DNA of 64,000 bases from Riemerella anatipestifer ATCC 11845 = DSM 15868 (GTDB lineage Bacteria; Bacteroidota; Bacteroidia; Flavobacteriales; Weeksellaceae), in NCBI RefSeq assembly GCF_000252855.1, contig NC_017045.1, positions 62,001 to 126,000 on the forward strand. Direction: 5' to 3'. The notes beneath the pieces were generated by a model. It ran no database searches and had not been told where the DNA came from. It saw nothing but the letters and a program-made list of their open reading frames with translations. Position numbers and translations under genes: made by a program. Within the stretch, counting starts at the first letter, position 1. Each line of letters starts with the position of its first letter. This document shows positions 34,307-62,943 of this stretch, one piece after another.

Positions 34307-34391
34307 GGAGAGATGGCAGAGCGGTCGAATGCGGCGGTCTTGAAAACCGTTGACTGTAACAGGTCCGGGGGTTCGAATCCCTCTCTCTCCG
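34307..34391 (+). tRNA. tRNA-Ser, anticodon UGA
   Basis: An 85-nt tRNA with acceptor stem GGAGAGA paired to TCTCTCC, discriminator G, anticodon loop CTTGAAA (anticodon TGA), a long variable arm, and T-loop GTTCGAATC. It is the apparent integration site of the prophage that follows. The 3' CCA is not encoded (the next bases are CA). Confidence 0.97.
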
Positions 34392-34403
34392 CAAAAAGGA
34401 GTT

Positions 34404-34427
34404 AAGCCGTTGTAAATCAACGGTTTT
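34404..34427 (+). terminator. Terminator after tRNA-Ser
   Basis: CCGTTG and CAACGG form a 6-bp stem around TAAAT with TTTTG after it. It lies inside the upstream extension of the integrase frame, which argues that the integrase starts further on. Confidence 0.6.
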
Positions 34428-34512
34428 GCTTTATAAAACAGGTCTTAAAGCACAAAAGTGCACAAATTCCATTTCCGCTACCCCTAATGTCCAACACTTT
34501 AATTTGGACGAA

Positions 34513-49800: not shown

Positions 49801-51054
49801 AGCAGCTAATCTTTCCTCCCTTGATTTTTTATCATCTGTTGCAACTTTATATAATTTCCCAAGTGTAGAAATTTCTTCAGTACCCTTTTGGTCTATCTCG
49901 GATAAAGTCTCGCTTAACTCTTTATTTATCTCATCGTATTCATTAGTTATGCCGATTAGTTTTTTTATTTCATCTCCATAGGTTACATAAGTAGTAGCTA
50001 AAAGACCTATTAGAGCTATAATAGCACCTATTGGGTTAGCTGATGTAGTAAGATTAAACAAGGCTTGTGCATCTTTTGCCGTTCTGATTGATTTGGCTAA
50101 CGATAGCCAATTTGATATAGCCTGTTGGGCAATTTGTGCTTTTTGTAATACAGAGGTTACAATTAACGCCGCACGATACGAGCCATAAGTCGCCACTAAA
50201 ATGGTTAAAACATCTATAACATCTTCGTAATGCTCCACCAAATAGGTTGCTCCTTCAATACCGCTATTCAAAAGCCCCTCGCTACCTTCGCCAATCTTAT
50301 TCAGCATTTGGTCAAAAGCGTCTTCCAAATTAGCTACTTTTCCAGATAAGGTTTTGGATTGCTCCTCCACTAGATTAAAGAATAATCCCCCCTCATCGGT
50401 CATATTCTTTATTACCGCTTGAACCTCTGGAAAACCTATTTTTCCTGCAGAAACCATATCTTTAATCTCTGCCTCGCTTTTACCTAATACTTTACCCAAC
50501 TCAGAAAGAATAGGGATGCCCGCATTCATAAATTGGTAAAGGTCGTTGGTCATCATTTTGCCTTGTGCCTTTACTTGCCCATACACGTGAATAAGCTGTC
50601 CCATAGGAACTCCTAGACCAGCGGCAATATTCCCCATTCTTGTAAGGGTTTCTGTTACCTGTTCGGCAGGAACTTGAAATGCTAATAACCTTTTTGCCCC
50701 CTCTGTAACATCGTTAAGACCGAAAGGCGTTTTGGCGGCTAAATCCACCATTTGCCCCATTAACTCATTAGCCTTTTCCTTGCTTTTGAGCATTGTGGAA
50801 AAGGCAATCTCTGTCTTTTGGAACTCGCCCCTAACATTTATTAGTTCACGAGTAAAGCCAATTAATGCTTGTCCAGAAAAATAGCCTGCAATACCAATAG
50901 ATAAATTTTTAAATGAAGTATCCATTTGGCGAGTTTGTTCCTGCGTTTTTTGATTAAGACCTAAAATATCTGCTTGTATCTCCCTTAGGTCTTTACGCCA
51001 TTGGGTCATATCTATTGCTGCTCCAAAAAATAATCCTCCGTTATTGGTATTCAT
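46873..51054 (-). CDS. Tail tape measure protein
   Basis: The 1393-residue protein has the typical N-terminal block (FTRELINVRGEFQKTEIAFS; MNAGIPILSELGKVLG near residues 180-196), membrane-like segments near 290-370, and long coiled-coil stretches. The length would set a tail of roughly 200 nm by the usual rule of about 1.5 angstrom per residue. It is separated from the tail chaperones by the accessory block 51055-54286, which is unusual. Confidence 0.93.
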   Translation of the reverse strand: MNTNNGGLFFGAAIDMTQWRKDLREIQADILGLNQKTQEQTRQMDTSFKNLSIGIAGYFSGQALIGFTRELINVRGEFQKTEIAFSTMLKSKEKANELMGQMVDLAAKTPFGLNDVTEGAKRLLAFQVPAEQVTETLTRMGNIAAGLGVPMGQLIHVYGQVKAQGKMMTNDLYQFMNAGIPILSELGKVLGKSEAEIKDMVSAGKIGFPEVQAVIKNMTDEGGLFFNLVEEQSKTLSGKVANLEDAFDQMLNKIGEGSEGLLNSGIEGATYLVEHYEDVIDVLTILVATYGSYRAALIVTSVLQKAQIAQQAISNWLSLAKSIRTAKDAQALFNLTTSANPIGAIIALIGLLATTYVTYGDEIKKLIGITNEYDEINKELSETLSEIDQKGTEEISTLGKLYKVATDDKKSREERLAATKRLQNEYPSYFGNLSAEIIMAGKAANAYNSLREAIIASAKARAIRSKIEEIEKERLEGEAELINKKEEILKKYRKGKKEGWKDETVNYGRDEFGKSNIVTFRGEDNKKALASQFVDVNKRLKEYQKETEKQTQVFADMAEEQERISAKYNADRQKREEEEAKKQQTSLSNTANETKKKAKAHQKALAEVYSKNSIKDLEERISLWNNALERATKDKDGNYQVKVRGKDKYGKEYETGQVVSKDKALEELKVLNEAKAKIEEEFRIKSTEEELAELKRRINLRDKYLQIGMNRPELINEDTVNNLFPDLKDKSYVQVLEEKRKAYLGLIEAQKATEQTTIDLIFIENELKNANGTETFMQGVNDRISELKEKYKGAELIDKLKKAKSLQLGGTEEDNLERNKAYASALKEAQKDYDKFYRDLLEQQKTYEEKSLELQKEYTALKATERYKNATPEEQKKIDKHYKKEQSKLDMDAFKESGDWALAFSDLEYMSQSTIERVIKNFEDFKRAKEQNLEPTELRELNDTLNKLRAKAGNNPFTGIISGVKGYVQANKDAKTAQDEYNATVDKFGKNSPQAQEAYRKMTDAEQEAIKAKQLLNAQLQKGQDIFNATIQGVTELADAFGGMDDATKDAIEDITAVGNAAFDLAKSISSGNIAGMISAGLKLIGSIFKALNGDKRREREVRRQEQAIRKLKDAYDELSHALDKAFGSQKQKGQRELIQNLRQQQQAIQNAKNAESQKKKKDQGKIDEYNAQYKATERAIKDLEESIIKDVLQTDIPEMAAKIGDVLEDSFLRGKDGLKDLDKAFNNMLRGIARHQLDLFLQDEMKGFYEKARSYAGFDEKGNGSFDGFQDWEIESLKSMWQSISENGRKFLEGMSNVYEGFQELEDPDSLAGAMRGMSEETAGILAGQFNAIRIHVAEIQKNQGFGLDIAKSSLLNLMKIEENTRNLYQMRKDLAEMNAKIKSNDTRGLGL

Positions 51055-51075: not shown

Positions 51076-51173
51076 CAAATTTACTTTAAGTAGGGGAGGG
51101 TTAAAATAGCAAAATCAGTATGTTATGCGGAAAAATTAAGTTTTTGATTTTAAAACACGCTTTTAAAATCAAA
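51076..51173 (-). promoter_or_regulatory. Late-type phage promoter, copy 1 (tape measure)
   Basis: A 13-bp perfect inverted repeat (TTTGATTTTAAAA and complement, 5-bp spacer, 51143-51173, centre 51158) lies upstream of TAAATTTG on the minus strand (51083-51076). The centre-to-box distance is 75 bp. CTATT starts 26 bp before the box. TACTTAAAG directly before the box is shared with copy 2. The tape-measure start is 22 nt downstream. Confidence 0.72.
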
Positions 51174-51239
51174 GCGGAGGTGTTTTAGTGTAATTTACTT
51201 TTTATATCTTTGCGATATAACTAATTAAAATTTAAAACT

Positions 51240-51641
51240 ATGAAAAAAGCGTTATTGTTTTTTGCCTTGTCCTTGGCAACATTAGGAACTTTTACATCTT
51301 GCTCAAGAGATGATGATAGTACAACGGTAGCCTCTAACCGTTATAATGTTACCGGGAATTGGAGTTTTTCCGAATACAAATCTGATGGCGTGTGGAAAAG
51401 TATGAGTATTCTAAAATACTACATTAACCTCAACGCTGACGGAACGTATACCACTAATTATTTAGGTGTTAAAGATTCAGGAACATATACTTATGATGGT
51501 AAAGATTTAGTTGTAACAAAATCCAACGCCTACGACCCAACCCACATTAGGATTATAAGTATGGAAGGAAATAGTGCTCAAGTAGAACTATTTGACCCTA
51601 AAAATCCATCGGATAAAATTGAATTCAAATTGGTAAAGTAG
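51240..51641 (+). CDS. Lipocalin-like surface lipoprotein (prophage cargo)
   Basis: The 133-residue protein has a lipobox (TFTSC, Cys21) followed by SRDDDS, an acidic pattern like the flavobacterial surface-export signal. The rest (GNWSFSEYKSDGVW, LNADGTYTTNY, GTYTYDGKDLVV) resembles small lipocalin-like lipoproteins. It has its own promoter element TATCTTTG (51205-51212). As a plus-strand gene within the late region it is a typical prophage cargo gene; a role in blocking other phages at the surface is a guess. Confidence 0.78.
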   Translation: MKKALLFFALSLATLGTFTSCSRDDDSTTVASNRYNVTGNWSFSEYKSDGVWKSMSILKYYINLNADGTYTTNYLGVKDSGTYTYDGKDLVVTKSNAYDPTHIRIISMEGNSAQVELFDPKNPSDKIEFKLVK

Positions 51642-51702
51642 TAAACTTCAAAAACAAACCCACGTTGTGAATTGCTTTCAAAATTTGCTATCTTTGTGAT
51701 AG

Positions 51703-51775
51703 TTCGCAACCTCAAAAATAAACCCATTGTTTATCAATGGGTTTTGTGTTTTTGTGAGGCAGAAATTGCTTTTTA
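51703..51775 (+). ncRNA. Putative small RNA of about 70 nt
   Basis: A promoter match (TTG 51665-51667, 21 nt, TATCTTTG 51689-51696) precedes a nested hairpin: AACCCATTG / CAATGGGTT inside CCTCA / TGAGG, then GCAGAAATTGC and a T-run. No reading frame fits. It lies in the 324-bp gap between the lipoprotein and the Abi gene. Confidence 0.45.
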
Positions 51776-51821
51776 TTAGTTGTTATGATATTTTTATGTA
51801 ATAAGCCTATCTATTGAGAAT

Positions 51822-51848
51822 AAAAAAACCTCAGAATAAATCTGAGGT
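51822..51848 (-). terminator. Terminator downstream of the Abi gene
   Basis: On the minus strand ACCTCAGA pairs with TCTGAGGT around a 5-nt loop, followed by seven T. It lies about 118 nt after the Abi stop. Confidence 0.7.
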
Positions 51849-51965
51849 ATACTTATTTTTTTTGAGTGCAGCACTAAAGCATTAAATAATAATGAATAGT
51901 GGGACACTTTTGATAATGCAAATTTACAAAATTATTTTATATACACAAGATAGTTTTATTAAAAA

Positions 51966-52859
51966 TCAAATCCTATACTTAATTTTGTTCTGAATAATAT
52001 CATATACATCGGTATCTTTATTACGATACTCATCAAATAATTTATCCAATTCTTCTGAAAGTTGCTTTGACCTATTTTCAGAAATTTGTTCCAAAATAAA
52101 TATAATAATCTTTATACAAGAATCTAAACAATGTCTGTCGCTATCATTAAATTCATAAAATGGCAATTTTGGAATGCCATATGCATATCGTAAATCAAAC
52201 ATAACTCCACCGTGTGCACAATAATTTCTAACAAACACAATGGTATCAATAAGTTTAGTAAACTTATCAAAATTATTTACTTTGTATAATTTTGAAATTC
52301 TCTCCTTTATATCATTATTTAGGAGAGACTTGTATATTTTTAAATTTGTTCCAAAAGTAAAATATTCTAATGTTTTCCAAGCTGGAGCATATTTATCATT
52401 GAGATTATTTTTATGATGTTTCGCTATTACTTTATTTTTAGCTATAAAATCATCATTGTAGAAATAATCAAATTTTTCAATAAAATCTTTTGAAATTACC
52501 TTTGGGTGAATAAACCAAGTGGGTGTTGATTTATACTTATTTGAACAGTAGTAAACAAGTTTCGTTCTGAAGTTGATTTCAATTCTATTGATATATTTTA
52601 TAAGCAGATGCCTTAAGTCTACATCTAAATAATAAAGATTTAAAATTGTGGAAAACTTAATATTCTCTCTAAGTTTATGAGTTTTTGTATTAGTTTCAAA
52701 AGGGTGCCAGTAAAATCCCAAACGATAATAACCTATATCCAACAAGATTTCTTTAACCTTATCCTTGTCTATGTCAAAAATCATTCCCCTTTTTTCTAAT
52801 TTATCTATTTGTTCATCTATTGACGTTGCTATGCTTCCCATTATTATTAAGTTTTTCAT
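51966..52859 (-). CDS. Abi_2 (AbiD/AbiF-type) abortive-infection protein with HEPN motif
   Basis: The 297-residue protein (from ATG 52859; GTG 52868 or ATG 52841 are alternatives, and 52841 best fits the -7 element at 52875-52868) has the family start IDEQIDKLEKRGMIF, the block IGYYRLGFYWHPF, and RNYCAHGG near residue 215, an RxxxxH motif typical of HEPN ribonucleases. Such proteins stop phage growth by harming RNA in the infected cell. It is very AT-rich and lies divergent to a structured RNA and an antirepressor operon. It may defend the lysogen against other phages. Confidence 0.88.
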   Translation of the reverse strand: MKNLIIMGSIATSIDEQIDKLEKRGMIFDIDKDKVKEILLDIGYYRLGFYWHPFETNTKTHKLRENIKFSTILNLYYLDVDLRHLLIKYINRIEINFRTKLVYYCSNKYKSTPTWFIHPKVISKDFIEKFDYFYNDDFIAKNKVIAKHHKNNLNDKYAPAWKTLEYFTFGTNLKIYKSLLNNDIKERISKLYKVNNFDKFTKLIDTIVFVRNYCAHGGVMFDLRYAYGIPKLPFYEFNDSDRHCLDSCIKIIIFILEQISENRSKQLSEELDKLFDEYRNKDTDVYDIIQNKIKYRI

Positions 52860-52885
52860 TCTATGCACAAAAATAACTAAAAAAT

Positions 52886-52915
52886 TTGCACAGTAAAAAA
52901 ATAGTCGTATATTTG
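52886..52915 (+). promoter_or_regulatory. Promoter of the pseudoknot RNA
   Basis: TTG (52886-52888), a 19-nt spacer and TATATTTG (52908-52915) are an ideal Bacteroidota promoter. The minus-strand Abi -7 element TATTTTTG lies at 52875-52868, so the two promoters overlap. Confidence 0.75.
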
Positions 52916-52918
52916 CAG

Positions 52919-53066
52919 TGTTAATCCAAGTGCCACACTTGTTTAAAGTGGTAAGATATTTAACGATATTATAAACTAAATCGTCAGAAGGTGTCGTGTA
53001 GTAGTAATACTATACACTAATTGCGTAAGCGCTTGGATTAACAGCACCCACTCTGACGATTTTTTA
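52919..53066 (+). ncRNA. Structured pseudoknot RNA between the Abi gene and the antirepressor operon
   Basis: Stem A pairs 52919-52933 with 53029-53043 (15 bp, one T-G pair). Stem B pairs 52978-52993 with 53045-53062 (11 bp plus 4 bp with an internal loop). The strands alternate A, B, A, B, so both together make a pseudoknot. Small hairpins fill the loops: CACTT/AAGTG at 52936-52950 and GTGTA..TACAC with TAG/CTA at 52996-53017. Stem B ends in a T-run and can act as a terminator. The RNA start from the promoter coincides with stem A. Confidence 0.65.
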
Positions 53067-53079
53067 ATTTTATACAATT

Positions 53080-53400
53080 ATGTTAATCCAAGAGACAACC
53101 GCACCAACCGCAAACAATAGTAGCGAGGTGCAAAACCAAGAAACCATTGATAGAGCGAAACGCCTATCTGAGTTTAACTCTTGTTTTGGTGTAGACCAAG
53201 ACAATCTATTTTACCTAGTTACAGAGCAAATGGATATGCTTACAGGCGAAATTCGCAAAGGGTATTACCAAAATGCTGAACAAAGAGTAGCCAACTTAGC
53301 CTCTTTGCTTTGGGCGATGCACAACCGATTACCTAAAGATTTTTTTGAAGATGTAGAATTGTTGACAGATGATATTTTGCTTAACACTAAATCTGCCTAA
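53080..53400 (+). CDS. Hypothetical phage protein, first gene of antirepressor operon
   Basis: The 106-residue soluble helical protein (RAKRLSEFNSCFGVDQDNLF in the middle) resembles small unnamed proteins of Bacteroidota phages. Its first 12 nt around the start codon repeat the 5' end of the pseudoknot RNA and are complementary to the 3' strand of stem A, so its translation may be controlled by that RNA. The next gene starts 2 nt after its stop. Confidence 0.7.
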   Translation: MLIQETTAPTANNSSEVQNQETIDRAKRLSEFNSCFGVDQDNLFYLVTEQMDMLTGEIRKGYYQNAEQRVANLASLLWAMHNRLPKDFFEDVELLTDDILLNTKSA

Positions 53401-53402
53401 CT

Positions 53403-54116
53403 ATGAAAGCGTTAATCAAAATCACAGAACAGAACGGACAGCAAGCCGTGTCGGCGAGAGAGTTACACTCTTTTTTAGAGATAACAGAGCGTTTTAGTAG
53501 TTGGTTTGAGAGAATGTGTCAATATGGATTTGTGGAAAATATTGATTATCAAGGGTGTGAATTTTTTAACACCCTTGCAAATCAGACACTTAAAGACTAC
53601 GCCCTAACCCTTGACACAGCCAAAGAAATATCGATGTTGCAAAGAAGTGAGAAAGGCAAACAAGCAAGGCGTTACTTCATAGAGTGCGAGAAGAAACTCC
53701 GCACAGGGGCTTACGCTTTACCACAGACCTTTGCAGAAGCATTGAAATTAGCCGCCCAACAAGCAGAGCGTTTAGAACTGCAACAGGCAGAACTCAAAAA
53801 ACAAGCCCCGAAAGTGGCTTATTATGAAGAAGTATTGCAAAGCGAAAGCACTTATAATACCAATCAAATAGCAAAAGAGTTAGGTATGAGTGCCATTACG
53901 CTTAACAAAAAGTTACAAGATTTAAAAGTTCAGTATCGGCAAGGTGGCACTTGGCTACTCTACCACAAATATCAAAATAAAGGCTATACGAAAACTAAAA
54001 CGCATACCTATACCGATACTAAAGGAGCAACCCAAACCAGTATGCAGACGGTATGGACTGAAAAAGGGCGTTTATTTATACACGAGGCTTTATCTAAACG
54101 CTTACAAAGTGCCTGA
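53403..54116 (+). CDS. Phage antirepressor (AntA/AntB N-domain, KilAC-type C-domain)
   Basis: The 237-residue protein has an AntA/AntB domain at the N-terminus (SARELHSFLEITERFSSWFE; GFVENIDYQG; LTLDTAKEISMLQRSEKGKQ) and a KilAC/ANT C-terminal domain (YNTNQIAKELGMSAITLNKK; GGTWLLYHKYQNKGY; TVWTEKGRLFIHEAL). Such proteins inactivate phage repressors to start lytic growth. Finding it in a cargo block within the tail module is unusual. Confidence 0.9.
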   Translation: MKALIKITEQNGQQAVSARELHSFLEITERFSSWFERMCQYGFVENIDYQGCEFFNTLANQTLKDYALTLDTAKEISMLQRSEKGKQARRYFIECEKKLRTGAYALPQTFAEALKLAAQQAERLELQQAELKKQAPKVAYYEEVLQSESTYNTNQIAKELGMSAITLNKKLQDLKVQYRQGGTWLLYHKYQNKGYTKTKTHTYTDTKGATQTSMQTVWTEKGRLFIHEALSKRLQSA

Positions 54117-54202
54117 TATAGAAAAGCACCCTTAATGGGTGTTTTCTTTTTTTAGCAATTCACAAAGTAGAACATTAAAAAATATTACTAAATTTGCTTT
54201 TG

Positions 54203-54284
54203 TAAGTAAGGGGGACTAAGTTCCCTTTGTTTCAGAATAACAGATTTGGCTTTAAGTTTCGCAACAAACTTAAAGCCTTTTTTT
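54203..54284 (+). ncRNA. Putative small RNA of about 82 nt
   Basis: A -7 element TAAATTTG (54189-54196) is followed by an AAGGG..CCCTT hairpin and then a perfect 12-bp terminator stem (GGCTTTAAGTTT / AAACTTAAAGCC, 54248-54277, T7). No reading frame fits. It ends 3 nt from the stop of the convergent tail chaperone extension. Confidence 0.5.
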
Positions 54285-54286
54285 GT

Positions 54287-54472
54287 TTACCGATACTTCT
54301 CTAACATTTTTTCTAAATCTTCTGGCGTTTGTTCGGTAAGGTCAATTTCTTTCTCTTTCTTATCATCGTCGTAGTTAGGAGCATCTATAAGCATTCGCTG
54401 TACGATACGCCAATCTACTTCCCAAAGCAAATAATCTAAAGTCCAGCCGAAATGGTGGCATATTTGCCCCAT
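54287..54472 (-). CDS. Tail assembly chaperone extension (reached by -1 frameshift)
   Basis: The 61-residue frame as drawn starts at MGQICHHFGWTLDYLLW. Its frame is -1 to the upstream chaperone gene and stays open back through 54535, overlapping the end of that gene. The slippery heptamer GTTAAAC (54535-54529 on the minus strand) is in the right phase to shift into it. The fused product would be 221 residues, analogous to lambda gpGT. HFGWTLDYLLW fits the chaperone T part. An independent start at 54472 is less likely. Confidence 0.75.
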   Translation of the reverse strand: MGQICHHFGWTLDYLLWEVDWRIVQRMLIDAPNYDDDKKEKEIDLTEQTPEDLEKMLEKYR

Positions 54473-54489
54473 AACACCGTATATAGATT

Positions 54490-54951
54490 TTATTTCTCTA
54501 TCGGATTCGCTTTGGTTGGGCGATTTCCGTTTAACAATGCGATAGAGAGTATAAAATTTGCGTAATCAGCCTCTTTTAGTAATGTTTGGGCGAAATTCAG
54601 TATTTCTTTTGAGGTATAAGATTTTAATACTTGTCGTTGTATCCACCACGAAAGAAGTTTGTTATCCGTAACGCAAACCGCTATCACTTTGGCTACTTTA
54701 CGAGCGTTTTGTAATACTGCTTGGTATTGAGCGGACAGTTGTTCTTGAAAATCTTTTGAGTTTAACGCCTCATCGTTAAGCTCCATAGTGATAAATATCT
54801 TAGATAGCCTAAGCATACGCCCCAAAGCCATTTTTTTGGCTTGGAATTTTCTTTTTTTTCCAAAAAAGGAAGTTACCTCTATTTCAAACCCTTTTCCCGT
54901 GAGTAGGTCGAGTTCCTTTTTTTCTGCTTGTATTTGTTCTGTTGTTGTCAT
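54490..54951 (-). CDS. Tail assembly chaperone (gpG-like)
   Basis: This 153-residue helical protein lies between the tail tube and tape-measure genes, the standard place for the tail chaperone. Its end contains the slippery codons TTG-TTA-AAC. It would hold the tape measure during tail assembly. The block FEIEVTSFFGKKRKFQAKKM near the start is typical of Bacteroidota phage chaperones. Confidence 0.75.
   Translation of the reverse strand: MTTTEQIQAEKKELDLLTGKGFEIEVTSFFGKKRKFQAKKMALGRMLRLSKIFITMELNDEALNSKDFQEQLSAQYQAVLQNARKVAKVIAVCVTDNKLLSWWIQRQVLKSYTSKEILNFAQTLLKEADYANFILSIALLNGNRPTKANPIEK
54529..54535 (-). other. Slippery heptamer for -1 frameshift
   Basis: Minus strand G-TTA-AAC in zero frame. 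Moving back one base gives GTT-AAA-C, which enters the open -1 frame. The same heptamer is the frameshift site of an animal nidovirus (equine arteritis virus). Downstream structure was not computed. Confidence 0.7.
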
Positions 54952-55030
54952 TGTGTTTTGCTTTTAGAAAAAATACCTACCCACAAATGCAGATAGGTAT
55001 TTCAACAATTAAAAAATAGAAAAATAGAAG

Positions 55031-55537
55031 TTATGCAACTTTAAACATAGAGAATCTTGGTTCTCCGTCTTTCGTTGGTCTTAGAACGGAAGCCGTAATA
55101 TCTAACATTAACAAGTTTTCTTTTCCAATATCTGGGGTAAATTTTGCCGTAATAGACACTCTTGGAAACTTAAACCCTAATCCTTTTTTGGGAGTGATTT
55201 CCATAGAACGCTCAATGGTTACAGATTGATTAGGTGCTTTGTACACTTCTGATGGACCCGACCCAGACTTAGAGCCTCCAAATACTTTCACAATGGTATC
55301 AATATCGGGATTGGCAATTTGATATTGGATATTTATTTTACCTTGCGTGTATTCTACGTGAAAAGGGTCGTCGTATTCCTCTACGAAAAACTCTTTCTTC
55401 TCGGCATCTTCAAAGTTGATTTTGCAGGAGCCTTGATTGGTTACACCTATCTGTTCAAGAGAAGTTCCCATTCCTCCATCTGATGCAATTTCGCCAATTT
55501 TAATACTGGCAAGTCCAATGTTTACTTTATTTGACAT
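55031..55537 (-). CDS. Major tail tube protein
   Basis: The 168-residue protein is mainly beta strand (KVNIGLASIKIGEIASDGGM; YTQGKINIQYQIANPDID; FPRVSITAKFTPDIGKENLL). It lies between the tail terminator-like and chaperone genes, the usual site of the tube gene. Function comes from position and fold pattern. Confidence 0.78.
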   Translation of the reverse strand: MSNKVNIGLASIKIGEIASDGGMGTSLEQIGVTNQGSCKINFEDAEKKEFFVEEYDDPFHVEYTQGKINIQYQIANPDIDTIVKVFGGSKSGSGPSEVYKAPNQSVTIERSMEITPKKGLGFKFPRVSITAKFTPDIGKENLLMLDITASVLRPTKDGEPRFSMFKVA

Positions 55538-55564
55538 AATAATTTAGTTTTAATGGTTATTTTT

Positions 55565-55975
55565 TTAGTTAAAAGTAGGGTAGGCATTAAGCTGTACCCT
55601 GAAATTGTAATAATTTTCGTTTTGTTCTTCAAAGTCCTGATGTGTTTCTACATCAAGGTTATAATCGTTTTCCCAAACATCGTTTAAAATGGCATAGACC
55701 TTATCCGCTATTTCCTTTAGACGCTTGTTGTCCTTATGCAGTTGCGTGATACCACCTACCGTTACAGACTTTTTAGGCACATAGCAGTTGATATTGAAAA
55801 CGCCATTTTGTAGCATTTGGTTCGTCATCGTTAGCGAGTTAATCACAATATCCTCCTTGTTGCTGTTTACTGGGCGATTGTCTTTGTAAATTTGCCCATT
55901 GATGAACTCATTTACTTTTGCCCGAAGTAGCAAGTCTAAAATCCATTGTTTTCCGTCTAATACCGTTCTTTTCAT
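55565..55975 (-). CDS. Tail terminator / tail completion-like protein
   Basis: The 136-residue protein lies before the tail tube and after the HK97 gp10-like gene, and overlaps the latter by 4 bp. A long helix (KDNKRLKEIADKVYAILNDVW) followed by beta strands fits the tail terminator fold. Confidence 0.65.
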   Translation of the reverse strand: MKRTVLDGKQWILDLLLRAKVNEFINGQIYKDNRPVNSNKEDIVINSLTMTNQMLQNGVFNINCYVPKKSVTVGGITQLHKDNKRLKEIADKVYAILNDVWENDYNLDVETHQDFEEQNENYYNFRVQLNAYPTFN

Positions 55976-56415
55976 TGCAACTGTTTTAGTAATATTGGCA
56001 CTTGTATTTTCGCTAACTGTTCCGCACTTGTAAGCACTACACGCCCTTTGCTTTCTACATAGCTGGCATATTTCATTCCTGCAACCACAATTAGAGCGAT
56101 ACCTCTAAATTTTGGTGCTACTTGGTAGGCTAACTCTCTGCCGTATTTCAATGGGTTTTCTTTGCTTGGCACGCTTCCGTTAGCTGAAATGCTAAAATTT
56201 TCCTCAATTACCCTTCCGTCTACTACAATTATATACCCGATAGAATTTCTAAGGTTGGCTGTTTGGTCTTGGTATGTCCCGTTAGCCTTAGCTTCATTAA
56301 CACACTTTTCGCCCACAAATTTTAAAACCCTTATTAACTTTTGGGTATAGTCTTCCTCTGCTTGTTTTAGAATAGCATTTATATCATTCATAGAAAACTT
56401 TGGAACTAAACCCAT
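55972..56415 (-). CDS. HK97 gp10-like tail completion protein
   Basis: The 147-residue protein shows the family plan: N-terminal helices, QTANLRNSIGYIIVVDG, then YASYVESKGRVVLTSAEQL at the C-terminal part. These proteins help join head and tail. It overlaps both neighbours (10 bp and 4 bp). Confidence 0.78.
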   Translation of the reverse strand: MGLVPKFSMNDINAILKQAEEDYTQKLIRVLKFVGEKCVNEAKANGTYQDQTANLRNSIGYIIVVDGRVIEENFSISANGSVPSKENPLKYGRELAYQVAPKFRGIALIVVAGMKYASYVESKGRVVLTSAEQLAKIQVPILLKQLQ

Positions 56416-56729
56416 ATTCTTGTGTGTAATTGTTCTTTAGCAAATCGCTGTACCGTAGCCTCCAGCCTTAAAACATTTCCGTTCCACACTTGGATTTTAG
56501 CCCCCGTGTTGATGCTTGGACAATGTTTTGGAGCGTAAACCACCGCTGAATAAACATAAGCCTCTCCGTCTGTTTTGGTAATCTTACTACCGCCACCGTT
56601 AATTTCATCTCTACAATAGCTGATAGTAACCCACTTCGCTTCTCCACCTTCCCATTCTGCCGTAGCTTGGTTAAAAGTCGCTTCTGCTTCTTGAAAAAGT
56701 TTCAAGATGTAAGGATACTGCTTTACCAT
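56406..56729 (-). CDS. Head closure (stopper)-like protein
   Basis: The 107-residue small beta-rich protein (GEAYVYSAVVYAPKHCPSI; GAKIQVWNGNVLRLEATVQR) resembles SPP1 gp16-type head-closure proteins. It overlaps the next gene by 10 bp and the upstream gene by 7 bp. Assigned by position and pattern. Confidence 0.62.
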   Translation of the reverse strand: MVKQYPYILKLFQEAEATFNQATAEWEGGEAKWVTISYCRDEINGGGSKITKTDGEAYVYSAVVYAPKHCPSINTGAKIQVWNGNVLRLEATVQRFAKEQLHTRIWV

Positions 56730-57046
56730 TGGTTAGAAATGTCTTTAATTGTTGGTTTAGGCAAAAGATTAGGCTTTCCCAGTTTCTCACATAGCATTTG
56801 ATAATAGCCCTCTACTGCTTTTTTATCAAAAGATATAGAGTATCCGCCCTCACTAACGCTGTTTGGGAGTAATAACATTTCAGGGAGCAAATTGTAGAAA
56901 AACAAATCTAATTTAGAGGCTGTTTCATTGTTATACTCGCTTTCCATTTGCAAGCCTAACTTTGATAATTCTGCACTAATTAAGGTGTCAGAGTAAGATA
57001 CTGACCATAAATTTAGTTTCTCTTTGATATACTCCCCGATAGTCAT
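56723..57046 (-). CDS. Head-tail adaptor-like protein
   Basis: This 107-residue helical protein follows the capsid gene with a one-base overlap, the usual place for the adaptor. Sequence MTIGEYIKEKLNLWSVSY at the start is like a small Bacteroidota phage family (possibly DUF6706). Function by position only. Confidence 0.6.
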   Translation of the reverse strand: MTIGEYIKEKLNLWSVSYSDTLISAELSKLGLQMESEYNNETASKLDLFFYNLLPEMLLLPNSVSEGGYSISFDKKAVEGYYQMLCEKLGKPNLLPKPTIKDISNQW

Positions 57047-58128
57047 TAGAATTTCGTCTTTAAGATTAAATTTTGTCTTGTGTTGTTCAACACAGGCACG
57101 GCAAACGCAGTTCCTTTAGTTGAAATACTAATCGGGTCTTGATGCCCAAATGTTTTCACAAGGATAAAATCGTCCTTGACCGCCTTACTCATTACATCAG
57201 GGAAGTTCATATTAAACTCCGTAGTAGTTGTATATTGTGTAGTTCCTAAGATTGGAGACACAGAAAACAAAATATTTCCAGCTTCCCAACCATTAGTGGC
57301 TTCTACTTGCCCTGCTTTGTTTTCGTGAGCGACAAACGATTCTACCAATCTGAATGTAGGCAACCCTTTTCCTTGCAGTTGGGCATTTAACTGTTCTACC
57401 GTAATATTTGGCAATACCGTAGAAGAATTTACAGGAATACCGTGTACAAACTGACGAACCAAAGGATTAGCAAGTAATACATCTAACACATCTCTTTCAA
57501 GTGTGATAGTAGTATATCTATACCCTTTGCCTCGTGCCTCGCTTTGCAAATCTGTAATTTCTTTAATAGGGTCAGCATCTGCCGCGGTAAACCAATTTTT
57601 CTTAGCATTTTGAGTTTTGATTTTAAAATCAATCTCCACATTTGCCACGCCCCCAGCGTTATTCGCAACGGTAGTTTTGAACTTTCCGTTAGAAATTAAC
57701 TGTTTAGCTACCCATTCCAAACGAGCGTTCACCCCGTCCGCCACAAAGGTTACATCTTCATAAATTTTGTCGATGAGTTGGTTTTTTATCGCTTGATTTT
57801 GAGGGTAAAGAGCAACAGAGTTTCTTAGTTGTTGTATTCTAAGTAAATCCCTCTCATCTTTATCCCTTGCAATTTCAATCTTTGGAATTTCTCCTTTGAT
57901 TGATTCTACAAAATCACGCCCTTTTCTTGAGGCTTTTGAGCCGATAGCTACAATATCAGCCATTATTTTAGCCCCCATTGTCCCCTCTATACTTGCAAAG
58001 TTCAAGGTTGGGTTAAACTCTAACGGGAATAAGGTTCTGTATTGAAACTCGCCCAAAGGGTAAGCATTCAAAACAGCTTCCAAATTTGCCTGACTAAATT
58101 CAGGAATAATATTATTTGCGTTTATCAT
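57046..58128 (-). CDS. Major capsid protein (lambda gpE family)
   Basis: The 360-residue protein carries major capsid protein E features: FPLEFNPTLNFASIEGTMGA near residue 34, KASRKGRDFVESIKGEIP (residues about 65-82), and a C-terminal MSKAVKDDFILVKTF followed by a beta-rich end. It lies after scaffold and decoration genes. Length is typical. Confidence 0.9.
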   Translation of the reverse strand: MINANNIIPEFSQANLEAVLNAYPLGEFQYRTLFPLEFNPTLNFASIEGTMGAKIMADIVAIGSKASRKGRDFVESIKGEIPKIEIARDKDERDLLRIQQLRNSVALYPQNQAIKNQLIDKIYEDVTFVADGVNARLEWVAKQLISNGKFKTTVANNAGGVANVEIDFKIKTQNAKKNWFTAADADPIKEITDLQSEARGKGYRYTTITLERDVLDVLLANPLVRQFVHGIPVNSSTVLPNITVEQLNAQLQGKGLPTFRLVESFVAHENKAGQVEATNGWEAGNILFSVSPILGTTQYTTTTEFNMNFPDVMSKAVKDDFILVKTFGHQDPISISTKGTAFAVPVLNNTRQNLILKTKF

Positions 58129-58148
58129 AGTTTAGTTTTTTTTAAAGG

Positions 58149-58514
58149 TTAAACGAATGAAATTCTTGGAAGAACCGTTTTGATAAATTCTACAGCTGCT
58201 TTCTCTTTGTCAGGTAAAGCATCTTTCCTTGCAGTTCCAGCCATAACAACAGCTACTAAAGGCATATCATCAATGACCACATCGTGAGCGGTTAGCCCGA
58301 TTGCTCCTACAACATTGACAGCGGATAAGTTCAAAGGCTTGAACATACCTTCTGTATCAGGAATTAAAAGCGTTCCTGCGGGAACAACACCATCTGCAAA
58401 TCTCTCTTTTGCTTTTTCTGCGTCGATATGAACGCCCCCCGGATATGTTGCATCGACTTGGTCAAACACAACTATTTGACGACCAACGCCGTCGGTCTTT
58501 TTAACTTTTTTCAT
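58149..58514 (-). CDS. Head decoration-like protein
   Basis: The 121-residue beta-rich protein (GVVPAGTLLIPDTEGMFKPL; VVGAIGLTAHDVVIDDMPL) lies between scaffold and major capsid, where lambda gpD-type decoration proteins are encoded. The pattern GxxxAGTxL is common in that family. Confidence 0.7.
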   Translation of the reverse strand: MKKVKKTDGVGRQIVVFDQVDATYPGGVHIDAEKAKERFADGVVPAGTLLIPDTEGMFKPLNLSAVNVVGAIGLTAHDVVIDDMPLVAVVMAGTARKDALPDKEKAAVEFIKTVLPRISFV

Positions 58515-58517
58515 TTC

Positions 58518-59174
58518 TTAGTTCTGATTTTGATTAAACTTTGTTTTAATATAATCCTGAACATCGGCAGAGACTTGTCCCTCTACTGGTCTATTTCCAA
58601 ACAATGGGTTGCTTTGGTTTTTCAGTAAATCATTGTTGATAGACTGTGCAAACGCATCTTGACTTTCTTTTAGTTGGTTTGCAAACTCGTTGATTTGCTC
58701 ATCATTCTCAAAGGTTTTTCCGTCAATATGCAACTTGTAGAAGTTCTCATTTACACCTAACTCTTGAAGTTTAGCAGTTAGCTTTTCCTTATTGGATTGT
58801 TGGATTTTTTCGGATTTTAAAGCGGTGATTTCCCCTTTTAATTCTTTCAGTAATTCCAACATTGGATTTGGCTCAGGATTTCCCTCATTTGGTTTCGGTT
58901 CAGGGTTAGGGTTTGGAGTTGGATTAGGCTCGTTCTTCTCTAACTTCTCTTTCAAATCCTTAACCTCTTTTAAAAGAGTTCTGTTCCTGTCCTCAAAGGA
59001 TTGATAAATACGCAATTCACTTTCCACGCTTTCAATCGCTTGGGTGATTTCCGCTTCTTCTGCTTCTTCTTTGACCGTTCTTGCCAATCTGTCGGCTGTA
59101 ACTTTCAAAATGCTTTCACTTAACCCTAAATCTTTATATTTAGTTTTAAGTAATTCAAGAATTTTTTTGTTCAT
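58518..59174 (-). CDS. Capsid scaffolding-like protein
   Basis: The 218-residue highly charged protein has coiled coils (residues 20-75 and 110-185) around a Pro-rich linker (NPTPNPNPEPKPNEGNPEP). Such a plan just before the capsid gene is typical of scaffolds. It heads a minus-strand unit with late-type promoter copy 2 directly upstream. Confidence 0.75.
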   Translation of the reverse strand: MNKKILELLKTKYKDLGLSESILKVTADRLARTVKEEAEEAEITQAIESVESELRIYQSFEDRNRTLLKEVKDLKEKLEKNEPNPTPNPNPEPKPNEGNPEPNPMLELLKELKGEITALKSEKIQQSNKEKLTAKLQELGVNENFYKLHIDGKTFENDEQINEFANQLKESQDAFAQSINNDLLKNQSNPLFGNRPVEGQVSADVQDYIKTKFNQNQN

Positions 59175-59212
59175 AGATAAATGGTTATTAGTTTTTTAGT
59201 ATCTTTGTGTTA

Positions 59213-59306
59213 CAAAACTACTTTAAGTAATAACTCCTTACAATAGGAAAACCAAACAAATAGCGTTTAAAATTAAATTTCTGATTTTAAAAGCGTGTTT
59301 TAAAAT
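59213..59306 (-). promoter_or_regulatory. Late-type phage promoter, copy 2 (scaffold/capsid)
   Basis: ATTTTAAAA-GCGTG-TTTTAAAAT on the plus strand (59284-59306, centre 59295) lies upstream of TAGTTTTG on the minus strand (59220-59213), again 75 bp away. CTATT starts 26 bp before the box and TACTTAAAG directly precedes it, as in copy 1. The palindrome touches the start codon at 59307, so its binder could also affect that divergent gene. Confidence 0.72.
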
Positions 59307-59573
59307 ATGAACGAGATTTTACACAAGAGAATAGCCGATATGACCACCTTTGAAATGATGGAGAGTGCTTATCTTATAGAAAAGGCAAGGAGTATCACAA
59401 TGTCTATTGATGATTTTGCCAAGACTATGGGGGTGGACAATCGGAAAGTTTATAAACTTTTAAAGGGCAAGATACTTCCTGAAGAAATAATAAGGGGAGG
59501 CTATGATTCTTTAAGACAACGCAAAAGACCCATATTTATAACGGAAGAGGTGTTAAAATGGATTAAAAACTAA
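59307..59573 (+). CDS. Small helix-turn-helix-like protein
   Basis: The 88-residue protein contains SIDDFAKTMGVDNRKVYKLL near residues 34-53, which looks like a helix-turn-helix, and a basic C-terminal part. It is the first of a plus-strand cargo set within the head genes. The phage palindrome lies directly in front of its start codon, which makes it a candidate for the protein that binds the palindrome or for a gene controlled by it. Confidence 0.7.
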   Translation: MNEILHKRIADMTTFEMMESAYLIEKARSITMSIDDFAKTMGVDNRKVYKLLKGKILPEEIIRGGYDSLRQRKRPIFITEEVLKWIKN

Positions 59574-59585
59574 TAACCAATAACT

Positions 59586-59816
59586 ATGAGTACATTTAAT
59601 TTTTCAGAATTTCTGATGCAAAAAGGATTTACTTTTACTAATTACGGAAGCCATAATTTATACGAGCTTTCCAGAGACGGACACGATTACTGCGTGAATT
59701 TACAAGGAGAAGTAATGACCACCAATGAAAGTAAAACAAAGGATTTAAAAGTGGATATTCCTATTCCTAAAAATAAAGCGGAAGCCGAAAGGTGGTTTAA
59801 AAAAATTCTTGGATAA
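59586..59816 (+). CDS. Hypothetical small protein
   Basis: This 76-residue protein follows the HTH-like gene by 12 nt and ends in front of a terminator. The pattern FSEFLMQKGFTFTNYGSHNL then LSRDGHDYCVNLQGEVMTTN is not familiar to me. No signal peptide. Confidence 0.62.
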   Translation: MSTFNFSEFLMQKGFTFTNYGSHNLYELSRDGHDYCVNLQGEVMTTNESKTKDLKVDIPIPKNKAEAERWFKKILG

Positions 59817-59821
59817 TATTA

Positions 59822-59848
59822 AAAAAGCCCTTAAATAGGGGGCTTTTT
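59822..59848 (+). terminator. Intrinsic terminator
   Basis: AAAAAGCCC pairs with GGGCTTTTT around a short loop right after the 76-residue gene. Confidence 0.8.
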
Positions 59849-59850
59849 AT

Positions 59851-59921
59851 TTGTACGATTAAATAAATTATCGTAAATTTGTAGGGTAACTGAAAGTCAG
59901 TTATGCGAGTTCGCACCTCGC
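59851..59921 (+). promoter_or_regulatory. Promoter and structured leader before small genes
   Basis: TTG (59851-59853), 20 nt, TAAATTTG (59874-59881), then two hairpins: TAACTG/CAGTTA (59887-59903) and GCGAG/CTCGC (59905-59921). It may be a leader of the small genes or a short RNA of its own. Confidence 0.55.
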
Positions 59922-59945
59922 TTGTTTAACTTTAACCAAAAATCA

Positions 59946-60044
59946 ATGAAATTCAGATTTGAATTGAGTTTTAGAAAGTTGAAAAGAGGTTTTAAAATCA
60001 GGTTGTTGGTCGCAATCAAAGATTTATTAAAACTAATTTTCTAA
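59946..60044 (+). CDS. Very small basic protein, 32 residues
   Basis: An ATG-started frame of 32 residues (MKFRFELSFRKLKRGFKIR then a hydrophobic end). It is strongly basic and amphipathic. It lies behind a clear promoter and leader and before the small membrane protein gene. Short length makes chance possible. Confidence 0.4.
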   Translation: MKFRFELSFRKLKRGFKIRLLVAIKDLLKLIF

Positions 60045-60100
60045 TTTCTAACTCGGTGGGGTTAAAATCCCACCTCATTGATTTTTCATAAAACAAAGTT

Positions 60101-60250
60101 ATGAAATATTTTTTAAAAAATATTCGTTCTAAATGGAAAGAAATAAACACGGAGGGTTACGAAAAAACTTTTGTTCTTGAGTTGTCTTTGGAGCAGATTA
60201 TTTTAATTGGCATTGCTGTAATTGGGCTTATATGGATAATGATAAAATAA
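60101..60250 (+). CDS. Small single-pass membrane protein, 49 residues
   Basis: Starts MKYFLKNIRSKWKEIN and ends with a hydrophobic helix (LIGIAVIGLIWIMIK). It overlaps the next gene by 19 bp. The basic N-terminus and single helix suggest an inner-membrane protein; a superinfection-exclusion or holin-modulating role is conceivable but unproved. Confidence 0.55.
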   Translation: MKYFLKNIRSKWKEINTEGYEKTFVLELSLEQIILIGIAVIGLIWIMIK

Positions 60251-60435
60251 AGGAACGGATTTTAGAAATCTTAGACCTATTTGGAATGACAGGAACAAAG
60301 GCGGCAGAAATTATGGGAGTGAAAGCCTCTACCTTTAATTGTAAAAAAAATGATAATAATCCCCGCCATTGGTTTAATCAAAAAAACCTTGATGATTTGG
60401 TTGCTTTTATTAAAAGGGAGGCGGAGAAGTTATGA
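60232..60435 (+). CDS. Small helix-turn-helix protein
   Basis: The 67-residue protein has MTGTKAAEIMGVKASTFNCK near residues 16-35, a helix-turn-helix-like pattern, and WFNQKNLDDLVAFIKRE after it. Similar tiny regulators are widespread in Bacteroidota phages. Its end overlaps the convergent minor head gene by 6 bp. Confidence 0.7.
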   Translation: MDNDKIKERILEILDLFGMTGTKAAEIMGVKASTFNCKKNDNNPRHWFNQKNLDDLVAFIKREAEKL

Positions 60436-61473
60436 AATTAATTTGGCGTTATTTTCTATCCACTCGGGTTTATACTTCCAATTCTTAAAGCGGTCTTTAT
60501 TGTCTTTAACCCACTGATTAAACTGCTTCGGTGTTGCTCCTATATAATATTTAGAGGTTTCAGGTGGCAGTTCTTGGTTGTTGTTGAGTTCCTTTATGAG
60601 TTCCTCATCGCTTTTTAAAATGGTTCTTCTGTGGCACATACAGCCAATATGCCACTTATTCCAGATGAAATTTTTAGGGTACCTTCCTGCTAACTCATCG
60701 CAAATGTCGTAAATCTTATGACTTGGGGATAAATGAATTTCTACGCCCACCACATCATTATTCTGCATTATTCTTATTTGTTCGCTGGTGCGGTAGGCGG
60801 TGTTAATTTCCTCCTTAGCTAATCGTAAAGCGTTTTTGTGTGCCGAACGGTAAACGCCCTGACCTGGATTATAATATTTGGCATTTTGACTTAATACTAA
60901 ATTGCCGTGCTTATCTCTTATCCTGCGATATAGTCTGTCGGGTTCGTTTAGGTTCTTTTTGATTTTACGAGCGAGTTCATTGGCACCCATTCCCTCCGAA
61001 AGGCTAACATCAATCGCCATCTCTAACTCGGACTTTACTTGTTGGGTAATACTCCAAACTCTTTCGGATAGTGTAAAATCGTTTATCTTTCGTTGCTGAA
61101 AAGAATGTAAGGCTTTCAGATTGTGAGGTGTTTTTGATACCTTTTCAATCTCTCGGATATAGGTTTCCTTGCTTAGTTTATGAGCTAACCTTTCCAAAGT
61201 AGCAATTCGCAAAACATTGTATTTTTCATTTGCGAATTGCCACTGTTTCTCCGTTCCTATATTGATAGTATTAAGCGTGTTTTTGTAATAAGAATCTAAA
61301 GCCTTTTCAATCTCCAGTAGTATTTTTTTATTATTGCGGAAGCGGTAAATCTTGTCTGTAATATCAGACTTAACCACCAAATATGAAACCCTTGCAATCA
61401 AACCATTGTAGATTTGTTCAAGGGTTCTTCCGTATTCCCTTACTCGTTTCCTGTGTAGCGTATCAAAGTCCAT
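60430..61473 (-). CDS. Phage minor head protein (SPP1 gp7 / Mu gpF-like)
   Basis: The 347-residue protein has a helical N-terminal part and a C-terminal head-morphogenesis domain (ARKIKKNLNEPDRLYRRIRD; EEINTAYRTSEQIRIMQNN; the Cys/His end HIGCMCHRRTI). It shares one base with the portal gene stop. It joins the portal in the procapsid. Confidence 0.85.
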   Translation of the reverse strand: MDFDTLHRKRVREYGRTLEQIYNGLIARVSYLVVKSDITDKIYRFRNNKKILLEIEKALDSYYKNTLNTINIGTEKQWQFANEKYNVLRIATLERLAHKLSKETYIREIEKVSKTPHNLKALHSFQQRKINDFTLSERVWSITQQVKSELEMAIDVSLSEGMGANELARKIKKNLNEPDRLYRRIRDKHGNLVLSQNAKYYNPGQGVYRSAHKNALRLAKEEINTAYRTSEQIRIMQNNDVVGVEIHLSPSHKIYDICDELAGRYPKNFIWNKWHIGCMCHRRTILKSDEELIKELNNNQELPPETSKYYIGATPKQFNQWVKDNKDRFKNWKYKPEWIENNAKLIS

Positions 61474-62831
61474 CAGATAGCGAATGATTTGCCATTAGCC
61501 AATTCGTTAATTCTATCGTCTTCCTCTTGTATTTGCTGCATCATTTCTTTTGGATTCTTAATGCCGAGTTTTTGCATAGCATATTCTTGCGAGTAGAGAG
61601 GCTTATTGCCATTAGCTTCCATTAAGAAACGAACAAACTCCGCCTCATTATTGATGATGAAAGGTGTAATAATTGGCTCTACATCTAAGTCATCATTCTT
61701 TAGTTTTACATTGAACATTTGCAGGTGCGACTTGATGATACTTGCTCTTCTTTGAAGGGCAGGAATATAAATAGCCAGCTTGTCCATTACCTTGAGGTGT
61801 GCCGATAAAAACAAAAATTCAGCATTGCTTCCTGCTAACATATTACCCAAACCTTTCATATTGTCAAAGCTAATATTTGGTGTAGCGGTAAAGTCGTGAA
61901 CATCTCGTTCTAAACGGTCGGTTTCTTCCGTGAGGCTTTGGTTAGCTTGGGGTTGATTGGCAAATTCAGCTTCCGCTCCTTCTTCTAACTGTAGTACACG
62001 CCCAGACTTGTCTTGTGATAACTGCCCTGTTACTTTGCCTTTTAGTTTTAAAATAGGAAAAGAAAAGCGGTCGTTGCTTTCTGCGGTGTTAGAATAAATG
62101 TGCTCCAATCTTTCAATGGCAGTTTGCACATCTGCCCACTCTACATTTTCCTGCTTGTAGTACACTATCGGAATTTTTCCTATTGCGTTAGGAATATCGC
62201 TTATTTTTTTCCATTCTTTTTCTTGTTCATATCTGATAATCCTTTCGTCTGTATAAACCTCAAAAATGGTTTTATTTCCATTCTTGAACTCCCGAGCAAA
62301 AGAAATAAGGTTGTCGTTTTCGTCAAATTTCGGATATAAGCTATAAATGTCAGGTGTCAAAACTTTAACCTTTAGCCTAAATTTTGCTCTAACCCCATAA
62401 TGTTCGTTAGGTTCATCGGTAAAATACCAAAGCTCGGCACATTCTGTAAATCGTCCCACAGAGGTTGCGATTTCCCTATCCACAAATTTCATCTTGTTTT
62501 TTTCAATAACCTTTAAAAAGGCTTTAAATAGCTCATCGTCCTCGAGGTTATTCGTGTATTTGATAGGTTCGCCACATAAAAAGGTAGTTGCTATATTGAC
62601 TATCTTTTTTTGATAGGGAAGACCGATGCGATTAAGGGGTATGGTTACTTTTTGTTTTTGCTTATTTCCTTTTTCGTCTGTATAGTCTGACACCACCGTT
62701 CTATCCGGGTATTTTACCAAATCGGTAAAAATTTTATGCTTTTTTACTTCATATTGGGAGTTGAACAGCGTAATATCAGGCAAAGTACGCTCCCCTTTAT
62801 GTTTTTCTATTTCTTGAGCAATGGTATTCAT
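61473..62831 (-). CDS. Phage portal protein (SPP1 gp6 family)
   Basis: The 452-residue protein has the family plan: N-terminal LPYQKKIVNIATTFLCGEPI near residue 72, IATSVGRFTECAELWYF, the central GKIPIVYYKQENVEW, and a helical C-terminus with RASIIKSHLQMF. It forms the ring through which DNA enters. Late-type promoter copy 3 lies just upstream. Confidence 0.9.
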   Translation of the reverse strand: MNTIAQEIEKHKGERTLPDITLFNSQYEVKKHKIFTDLVKYPDRTVVSDYTDEKGNKQKQKVTIPLNRIGLPYQKKIVNIATTFLCGEPIKYTNNLEDDELFKAFLKVIEKNKMKFVDREIATSVGRFTECAELWYFTDEPNEHYGVRAKFRLKVKVLTPDIYSLYPKFDENDNLISFAREFKNGNKTIFEVYTDERIIRYEQEKEWKKISDIPNAIGKIPIVYYKQENVEWADVQTAIERLEHIYSNTAESNDRFSFPILKLKGKVTGQLSQDKSGRVLQLEEGAEAEFANQPQANQSLTEETDRLERDVHDFTATPNISFDNMKGLGNMLAGSNAEFLFLSAHLKVMDKLAIYIPALQRRASIIKSHLQMFNVKLKNDDLDVEPIITPFIINNEAEFVRFLMEANGNKPLYSQEYAMQKLGIKNPKEMMQQIQEEDDRINELANGKSFAI

Positions 62832-62853
62832 AATGATATATTAGTGATAATCA

Positions 62854-62943
62854 CAAAATTAACCATACCGAAAACCGCTAACAATAGCAACAGGGGAGGA
62901 TTTGACAGAAAAACTAAATTTTCGATTTTAAAAGCGTGTTTTA
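62854..62943 (-). promoter_or_regulatory. Late-type phage promoter, copy 3 (portal)
   Basis: ATTTTAAAA-GCGTG-TTTTA on the plus strand (62925-62943, centre 62936; the second arm is incomplete) lies upstream of TAATTTTG on the minus strand (62861-62854), again 75 bp away. CTATT starts 26 bp before the box. The palindrome ends just before the terminase stop codon. The portal start is 23 nt downstream of the box. Confidence 0.68.

Follow-up and report, generated by a model that had tools for sequence, protein, structure and literature searches.

Which factor switches on the late genes of the Riemerella anatipestifer prophage analysed here, and at which promoters does it act? The window, i.e., the whole stretch of 64,000 nucleotides of strain ATCC 11845 = DSM 15868 that was analysed (contig NC_017045.1, positions 62,001 to 126,000), ends inside this prophage, which starts beside a tRNA-Ser gene (34307-34392) and extends approximately 19 kb beyond the window. 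A gene-by-gene table shows its close relationship to Riemerella phage RAP44, with a portal protein of 97.8% identity, and it is a RAP44-type temperate siphophage. Four of its minus-strand promoters, situated in front of ninG, the portal gene, the gene in scaffold position and the tape-measure gene, share an upstream dyad at a fixed distance of 75 base pairs (bp) from the -7 box. This late-promoter class is almost certainly a genuine, conserved feature of RAP44-type phages. As judged from the sequences, it is probably activated by a phage-encoded protein, for which an 88-amino-acid (aa) protein encoded next to the scaffold promoter is the leading candidate.

Architecture of the late promoters

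Read on the minus strand, the shared element consists of a dyad AAAA-GCGTG/CACGC-TTTTAAAAT, an AT tail (NRAAA-YTTA-RTTTT), a CTATT box and the -7 box TAnnTTTG (Table 1). At all four sites, 75 bp separate the dyad centre from the first T of TAnnTTTG. An earlier note on this DNA had described three copies, before the portal, scaffold and tape-measure genes. All three were found where it had placed them and upstream of the genes it had named, including the AT tail, the start of the CTATT box 26 bp before the -7 box and the distance of 75 bp, but the class has a fourth member upstream of ninG, the first gene of the late operon ninG-ASCH-PAPS reductase-ParB-TerS-TerL. As regards the palindromic arms, a dyad was observed at all sites, whereas the long arms of the earlier description are not conserved at the portal copy with its short AAAA/TTTT dyad.

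Contrary to the note, which regarded the normal TTG element as absent, this element is part of CTATTG and is found in exact form at three of the four sites, 19-20 nucleotides upstream of the -7 box. The exception is the tape-measure site with TTT at -33, the R. columbipharyngis counterpart of which has TTG. TAnnTTTG, the -7 box located at -12 to -5 in flavobacterial sigma-A promoters (PMC9723704), is present at all four sites. By these elements, the late promoters are ordinary host-polymerase sigma-A promoters with an extra upstream operator. Since the canonical -33/-7 arrangement (TTG-N19/20-TAnnTTTG) at three out of four sites requires no altered polymerase, the altered polymerase that the note had offered as an alternative is not supported and was rejected, as was an altered sigma factor.

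The operator dyad is centred approximately 87 bp before the predicted transcription start, and approximately 22 bp separate the operator from the -33 box downstream of it. At all four sites, the AT tail can be read as a further AAAA-N5-TTTT module, shifted by 20 bp towards the promoter and with no more than one mismatch; in R. columbina, the two modules read CAAAAAGCGGTTTTT and CAAAAACTTTGTTTTT. Presumably, two dimers occupy the same face of the helix, 20 bp being about two turns, one bound strongly at the module with the GCG core and the other weakly.

Significance and conservation of the sites

The pattern TTTTAAAATCNRAAANTTANTTTT has three perfect matches in the window, compared to 0.19 matches expected at up to three mismatches, and nothing else in the 64 kb matches it. 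As the pattern was drawn from the three sites, this count is circular, and independent evidence is given by the fourth site and the related genomes. On each strand, TAnnTTTG occurs approximately every 1,000 bases, and the probability of three further sites at equal offset by accident is about 1e-9, an estimate made before allowing for the clustering of such boxes upstream of genes.

The distance of 75 bp was found in 36 out of 36 sites of nine R. anatipestifer-type genomes, i.e., the window genome and G002 with four sites each and the phages RAP44, CRP19, PT03, CRP2, GRAP2, PJA1, and CRP5 with 28 sites. It is also kept at all four sites of R. columbipharyngis (G005) and at all three sites of the R. 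columbina (G003) contig, which does not take in the tape-measure promoter. G003 and G005 were matched to these two species by contig identity with named records. Where their core consists of the four bases GCGG rather than five, the true dyad centre is at 75.5, which is 75 by the common count. Between the sites of the window genome, identity amounts to 70-94% for the operators and to 33-43% for the 21-bp spacers; due to the latter values, the four copies are not simply recent duplicates. Compared to R. columbina and R. columbipharyngis, orthologous spacers show 29-62% identity and zero indels.

All matches to AAAAGCGTGTTTTAAAA in the host genome (up to one mismatch) fall within the prophage. 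Due to the lack of matches elsewhere in the host chromosome at this threshold, the protein reading the site is likely to be phage-encoded. Phage PJN03 (L028, ON245412), which served as negative control, contains neither the motif nor the 88-aa gene cluster, despite lysis and tail genes of 95-100% identity. PJN03 is a chimaeric phage, the head genes of which are at most about 40% identical to those of RAP44-type phages, with a different head control region that lacks the motif. In CRP5 (L032, 18411), the scaffold operator carries its central GCGTG/CACGC in the opposite orientation to that of the related phages.

A candidate regulator

On comparison of gene contents, a group of short genes on the plus strand, between 59307 and 60435, comprises the sole regulator-like genes that occur in every motif phage, those of R. 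columbina and R. columbipharyngis included, yet are missing from PJN03. The earlier note had pointed to 59307 as a possible location of a DNA-binding protein, and the gene starting there is now the best candidate. It encodes the 88-aa protein, a predicted winged helix-turn-helix (HTH) protein, begins exactly at the end of the scaffold dyad, with the operator adjoining its ATG, and is situated between head-morphogenesis and scaffold genes on the opposite strand. All 19 phage records encoding this gene are of the RAP44 type. The AlphaFold2 model comprises an HTH and a wing (predicted local distance difference test, pLDDT, 85). BldC, AlpA, PrtN, Cox, and Xis are fold neighbours, all of them weak, as is the match to HTH_17. 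Overall, the odds lean modestly towards this protein being the activator.

The plus-strand box TATCTTTG (window 59200-59207) faces the scaffold late promoter and is kept in R. columbina and R. columbipharyngis, without a clear TTG. An RNA starting from it could serve the 88-aa gene and would run through the operator. Elsewhere on the host chromosome, a further homologue of this protein is encoded (93 aa, 33% identical; G000:C1:342142-342360; L097, L150), downstream of a 282-aa gene resembling a replication initiator. As for database records, OQ791282.1, labelled as Shigella phage Henu10, belongs to the RAP44-type phages of Riemerella (identity of 98.7% for the portal and 95.5% for the 88-aa gene), and its host label is doubtful. 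In case of PT03 (L027, MZ995504), annotation names are shifted by at least one gene, with the portal open reading frame named “terminase” and that of the 67-aa HTH protein “portal protein”.

Relatives outside Riemerella

Homologues of the 88-aa protein were found by profile search in other Weeksellaceae prophages, and none was found outside the Weeksellaceae among 396 genomes sampled across the order. Wherever the examined neighbourhood is intact, they are divergent from the scaffold gene, and most of them adjoin a different dyad. The same dyad type (AAAAAGCGGTTTTT) occurs in G250 at 76.5 bp. G204 and two viral contigs carry the dyad TAATCAATAATTGATTA at 74 bp (shuffle P 0.0025 for G204), and G251 carries TTCATAAACCGTTTATGAA at 64 bp (shuffle P < 0.0025). 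In several Chryseobacterium prophages (the genus is presumed from kinship for G074, G132, G022, G072, and group g6), TAAAGTAATACTTTA or a one-base variant is located at the scaffold promoter at 61-62 bp. TAAAG-N5-CTTTA occurs again, at 46-47 bp, at the promoter with which the late operon starts, its first gene being ninG in G132 and G072 and a nuclease-like gene in G022. This dyad amounts to 2-3 copies per Chryseobacterium prophage compared to 0.1-0.2 expected. Thus, a dyad common to scaffold and late-operon promoters arises with another sequence in a lineage having the same protein family.

The expectation of the note that related prophages would keep the distance between palindrome and box holds throughout Riemerella. 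Outside this genus, the distances range from 46 to 76 bp, and 75 is therefore a lineage trait. No promoter was found in the portal-upstream regions of Chryseobacterium and other genera, so that portal promoters are not comparable across genera. It is tempting to speculate that a new phage family of approximately 90-aa MerR/AlpA-like proteins, which in this analysis was restricted to phages of the Weeksellaceae and is encoded divergently to the scaffold gene, acts as master late activator, and that its operator changed in sequence from one lineage to another (a dyad of A/T with GCG core, TAATCAAT-type, TTCATAAAC-type, and TAAAG-N5-CTTTA); we consider this wider proposal tentative, at slightly short of even odds.

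Proposed model and alternative explanations

In the proposed model, the four sigma-A promoters (ninG, portal, scaffold, and tape measure) would constitute a late regulon, each with an operator near -87 and, 20 bp towards the promoter and facing the same side of the helix, a weaker AAAA-N5-TTTT module. The operator would be bound by a small DNA-binding protein of the phage, for which the predicted 88-aa winged HTH is the most likely candidate; from this upstream position, the protein would recruit the host RNA polymerase and thereby turn on the genes for head, packaging and tail in concert. The 88-aa protein may also limit its own synthesis, and such autoregulation is probable because the scaffold operator adjoins its start codon. 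We infer binding, activation, protein identity and autoregulation from sequence and assign the whole model a probability of roughly 0.55. The phage-encoded activator advocated by the note is supported by the phage-restricted site, the lineage-fixed geometry, the fitting target genes and the co-occurring DNA-binding gene. Of that claim, the shared promoter class and its companion gene stand, while activation as the sign of regulation is deduced from position and target genes.

Besides this deduction, several observations weigh against the model. Three of the four promoters seem complete without an activator, and their full -33/-7 elements leave room for repression. The best PDB match of the 88-aa model is BldC with a probability of 0.92 but an E value of 0.28, which is weak. 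Taken alone, the scaffold dyads of Riemerella and Chryseobacterium are not significant by shuffling. The regulators of G074 and G072 have differing recognition helices and one dyad type, i.e., the covariation of protein and operator is not clean. In G204 and G251, the dyad is present in a single copy next to the regulator, an arrangement that is also compatible with pure autorepression. Finally, the Chryseobacterium prophages G086, G064, G114, and G173 have the gene, and no TAnnTTTG or clear dyad was found there.

Instead of an activator site, the dyad might be the operator of a repressor, either the 88-aa protein or another prophage repressor, which silences the late promoters and its own gene until sigma-A fires on release. 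In line with this, the promoters seem self-sufficient, in Riemerella, G250, G204, and G251 the dyad lies next to the start codon of the regulator or overlaps with it, and the only copy in the latter two is that at the regulator. We nevertheless consider repression unlikely, since a centre near -87 is far from the promoter to be blocked and the exact distance to the -7 box need not be kept for this purpose at four diverging loci. Moreover, phages usually have one repressor, for the early genes, and a CI-like S24 repressor is encoded elsewhere (L007:17111-17869). Rather less probable still is binding of the dyad by a different phage protein, namely the 67-aa HTH protein, a 104-aa WYL_2 protein encoded upstream of ninG, or the KilAC antirepressor. 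The 67-aa gene co-occurs with the motif in all Riemerella motif phages, but no homologue was found in G204, G251, or G250, in which the dyad beside the 88-aa gene persists. The WYL_2 and KilAC genes were set aside on gene content: the R. columbina contig bearing the ninG site lacks the former, and no full-length copy of the latter is present in the prophage region of R. columbipharyngis.

It is improbable that the protein, instead of activating initiation, loads at the promoters as an AlpA- or Q-like antiterminator. AlpA and PrtN are among the fold neighbours of the 88-aa protein and AlpA has been shown to work as an antiterminator (PMC7969949), but AlpA and Q elements are located between -35 and -10, whereas the operator described here is situated entirely upstream of -33, and a processive factor would have no need of four promoters distributed over the late genes. 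Even less weight is given to a mechanism without a dedicated factor, in which the A-tracts act as UP-like or bent-DNA element or are bound by a host nucleoid protein or global regulator. Tail and arms are indeed composed purely of A/T with approximately 10-bp phasing; however, the GCG core is conserved in either orientation, the site is absent elsewhere in the host chromosome, and in related phages the whole sequence is replaced by other dyads. Hardly credible, finally, are recombination sites, terminators or repeats without a promoter role. The inverted core of the CRP5 scaffold site resembles invertible or template-switching quasi-palindromes, but the direction of the tail is constant, the promoter distance is fixed across three host species, the promoter downstream is kept in all relatives, and two of the sites are located in divergent regions, where no transcript arrives from upstream that could be terminated.

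Prophage setting and neighbouring genes

Table 1. Late-promoter elements, candidate regulator and further features of the prophage (window coordinates)
Feature	Position	Strand	Remarks
Tape-measure operator	51131..51169	-	dyad ATTTTAAAA-GCGTG-TTTTAAAAT 51147-51169, centre 51158; AT tail 51131-51146
Tape-measure late promoter	51076..51109	-	CTATTT at -33 (TTT, not TTG) and TAAATTTG (51076-51083)
Scaffold operator	59268..59306	-	dyad ATTTTAAAA-CACGC-TTTTAAAAT 59284-59306, centre 59295, and AT tail
Scaffold late promoter	59213..59246	-	CCTATTG, TTG-N20-TAGTTTTG (TTG at 59243)
Portal operator	62909..62942	-	AAAACACGCTTTTAAAATC and AT tail, centre 62936; immediately past terL stop codon
Portal late promoter	62854..62887	-	CTATTG, TTG-N20-TAATTTTG (TTG at 62884)
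Fourth site, before ninG (late-operon start)	67366 (L007:3278-3366)	-	3.4 kb past window
ninG promoter	TTG at 67307	-	TTG-N19-TACTTTTG
Tape-measure gene (target)	46873..51054	-	as annotated in RAP44
Gene in scaffold position (target)	58518..59174	-	phrog_5824
Portal gene (target)	61473..62831	-	SPP1_portal, 1e-74
Candidate regulator, predicted 88-aa MerR/AlpA/BldC-like winged-HTH protein	59307..59573	+	RAP44 gp39, “hypothetical”; divergent from scaffold gene
76-aa partner gene	59586..59816	+	after regulator, likewise in G251 and G250
Canonical TTG/TAAATTTG promoter	59851..59885	+	for 49-aa and 67-aa genes
67-aa HTH-like protein	60232..60435	+	rival candidate; in all Riemerella motif phages
Integrase	34426-35670		prophage start, beside tRNA-Ser

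An Abi_2 abortive-infection gene (window 51966-52868, minus strand; Pfam 4.9e-39) is located between the tape-measure region and the antirepressor gene, and no counterpart was found on comparison with eleven related phages and prophages. The early region contains two identical 35-bp promoters (TTGGTGGTTTGATTTTTTGTCGTATATTTGCAGTG) at window coordinates 69004 and 69305 (L007, minus strand), approximately 300 bp apart.

Comparison with known systems

In the open-access literature, no description of late-gene switch-on in Bacteroidota siphophages was found. The present analysis names one candidate protein and defines four operators, in addition to a set of operators specific to individual lineages. 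If the wider proposal on the Weeksellaceae protein family is true, these would represent a natural series of protein-operator pairs and a first late-gene switch for Bacteroidota siphophages. The model, if right, would also offer an inducible promoter system working with the unusual flavobacterial sigma factor. Compared to other flavobacterial sigma-A promoters, TTG and TAnnTTTG occur at the usual spacing, and the extra operator is restricted to the four phage promoters.

Similar to the staphylococcal Ltr/RinA proteins, for which binding of a small phage protein to repeats upstream of a late promoter was proposed (PMC13123087), the candidate is small and phage-encoded, but its gene is located on the opposite strand within the late region, and four promoters are concerned. 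It resembles AlpA, PrtN, BldC, and Xis in size and in its predicted winged-HTH fold, although neither its sequence nor its fold matches theirs significantly. A further difference is the binding of BldC to direct repeats (PMC5859096). The closest parallel in organisation is the Ogr-Delta system of P2/P4, in which one small phage activator serves four late promoters, each with a dyad upstream, and the host polymerase is used (PMC3931495). As in P2, several late promoters share one common dyad at fixed spacing. Unlike Ogr, a CX2CX22CX4C zinc finger protein, the Riemerella candidate is a cysteine-free predicted winged HTH protein. The operator AAAA-N5-TTTTAAAAT with its AT tail differs in sequence from the Ogr site TGT-N12-ACA and is longer, and the promoters, unlike those of P2, are of the Bacteroidota sigma-A type. 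By analogy, the proposed Riemerella switch would work like that of P2 Ogr, but its candidate protein is not in the Ogr family.

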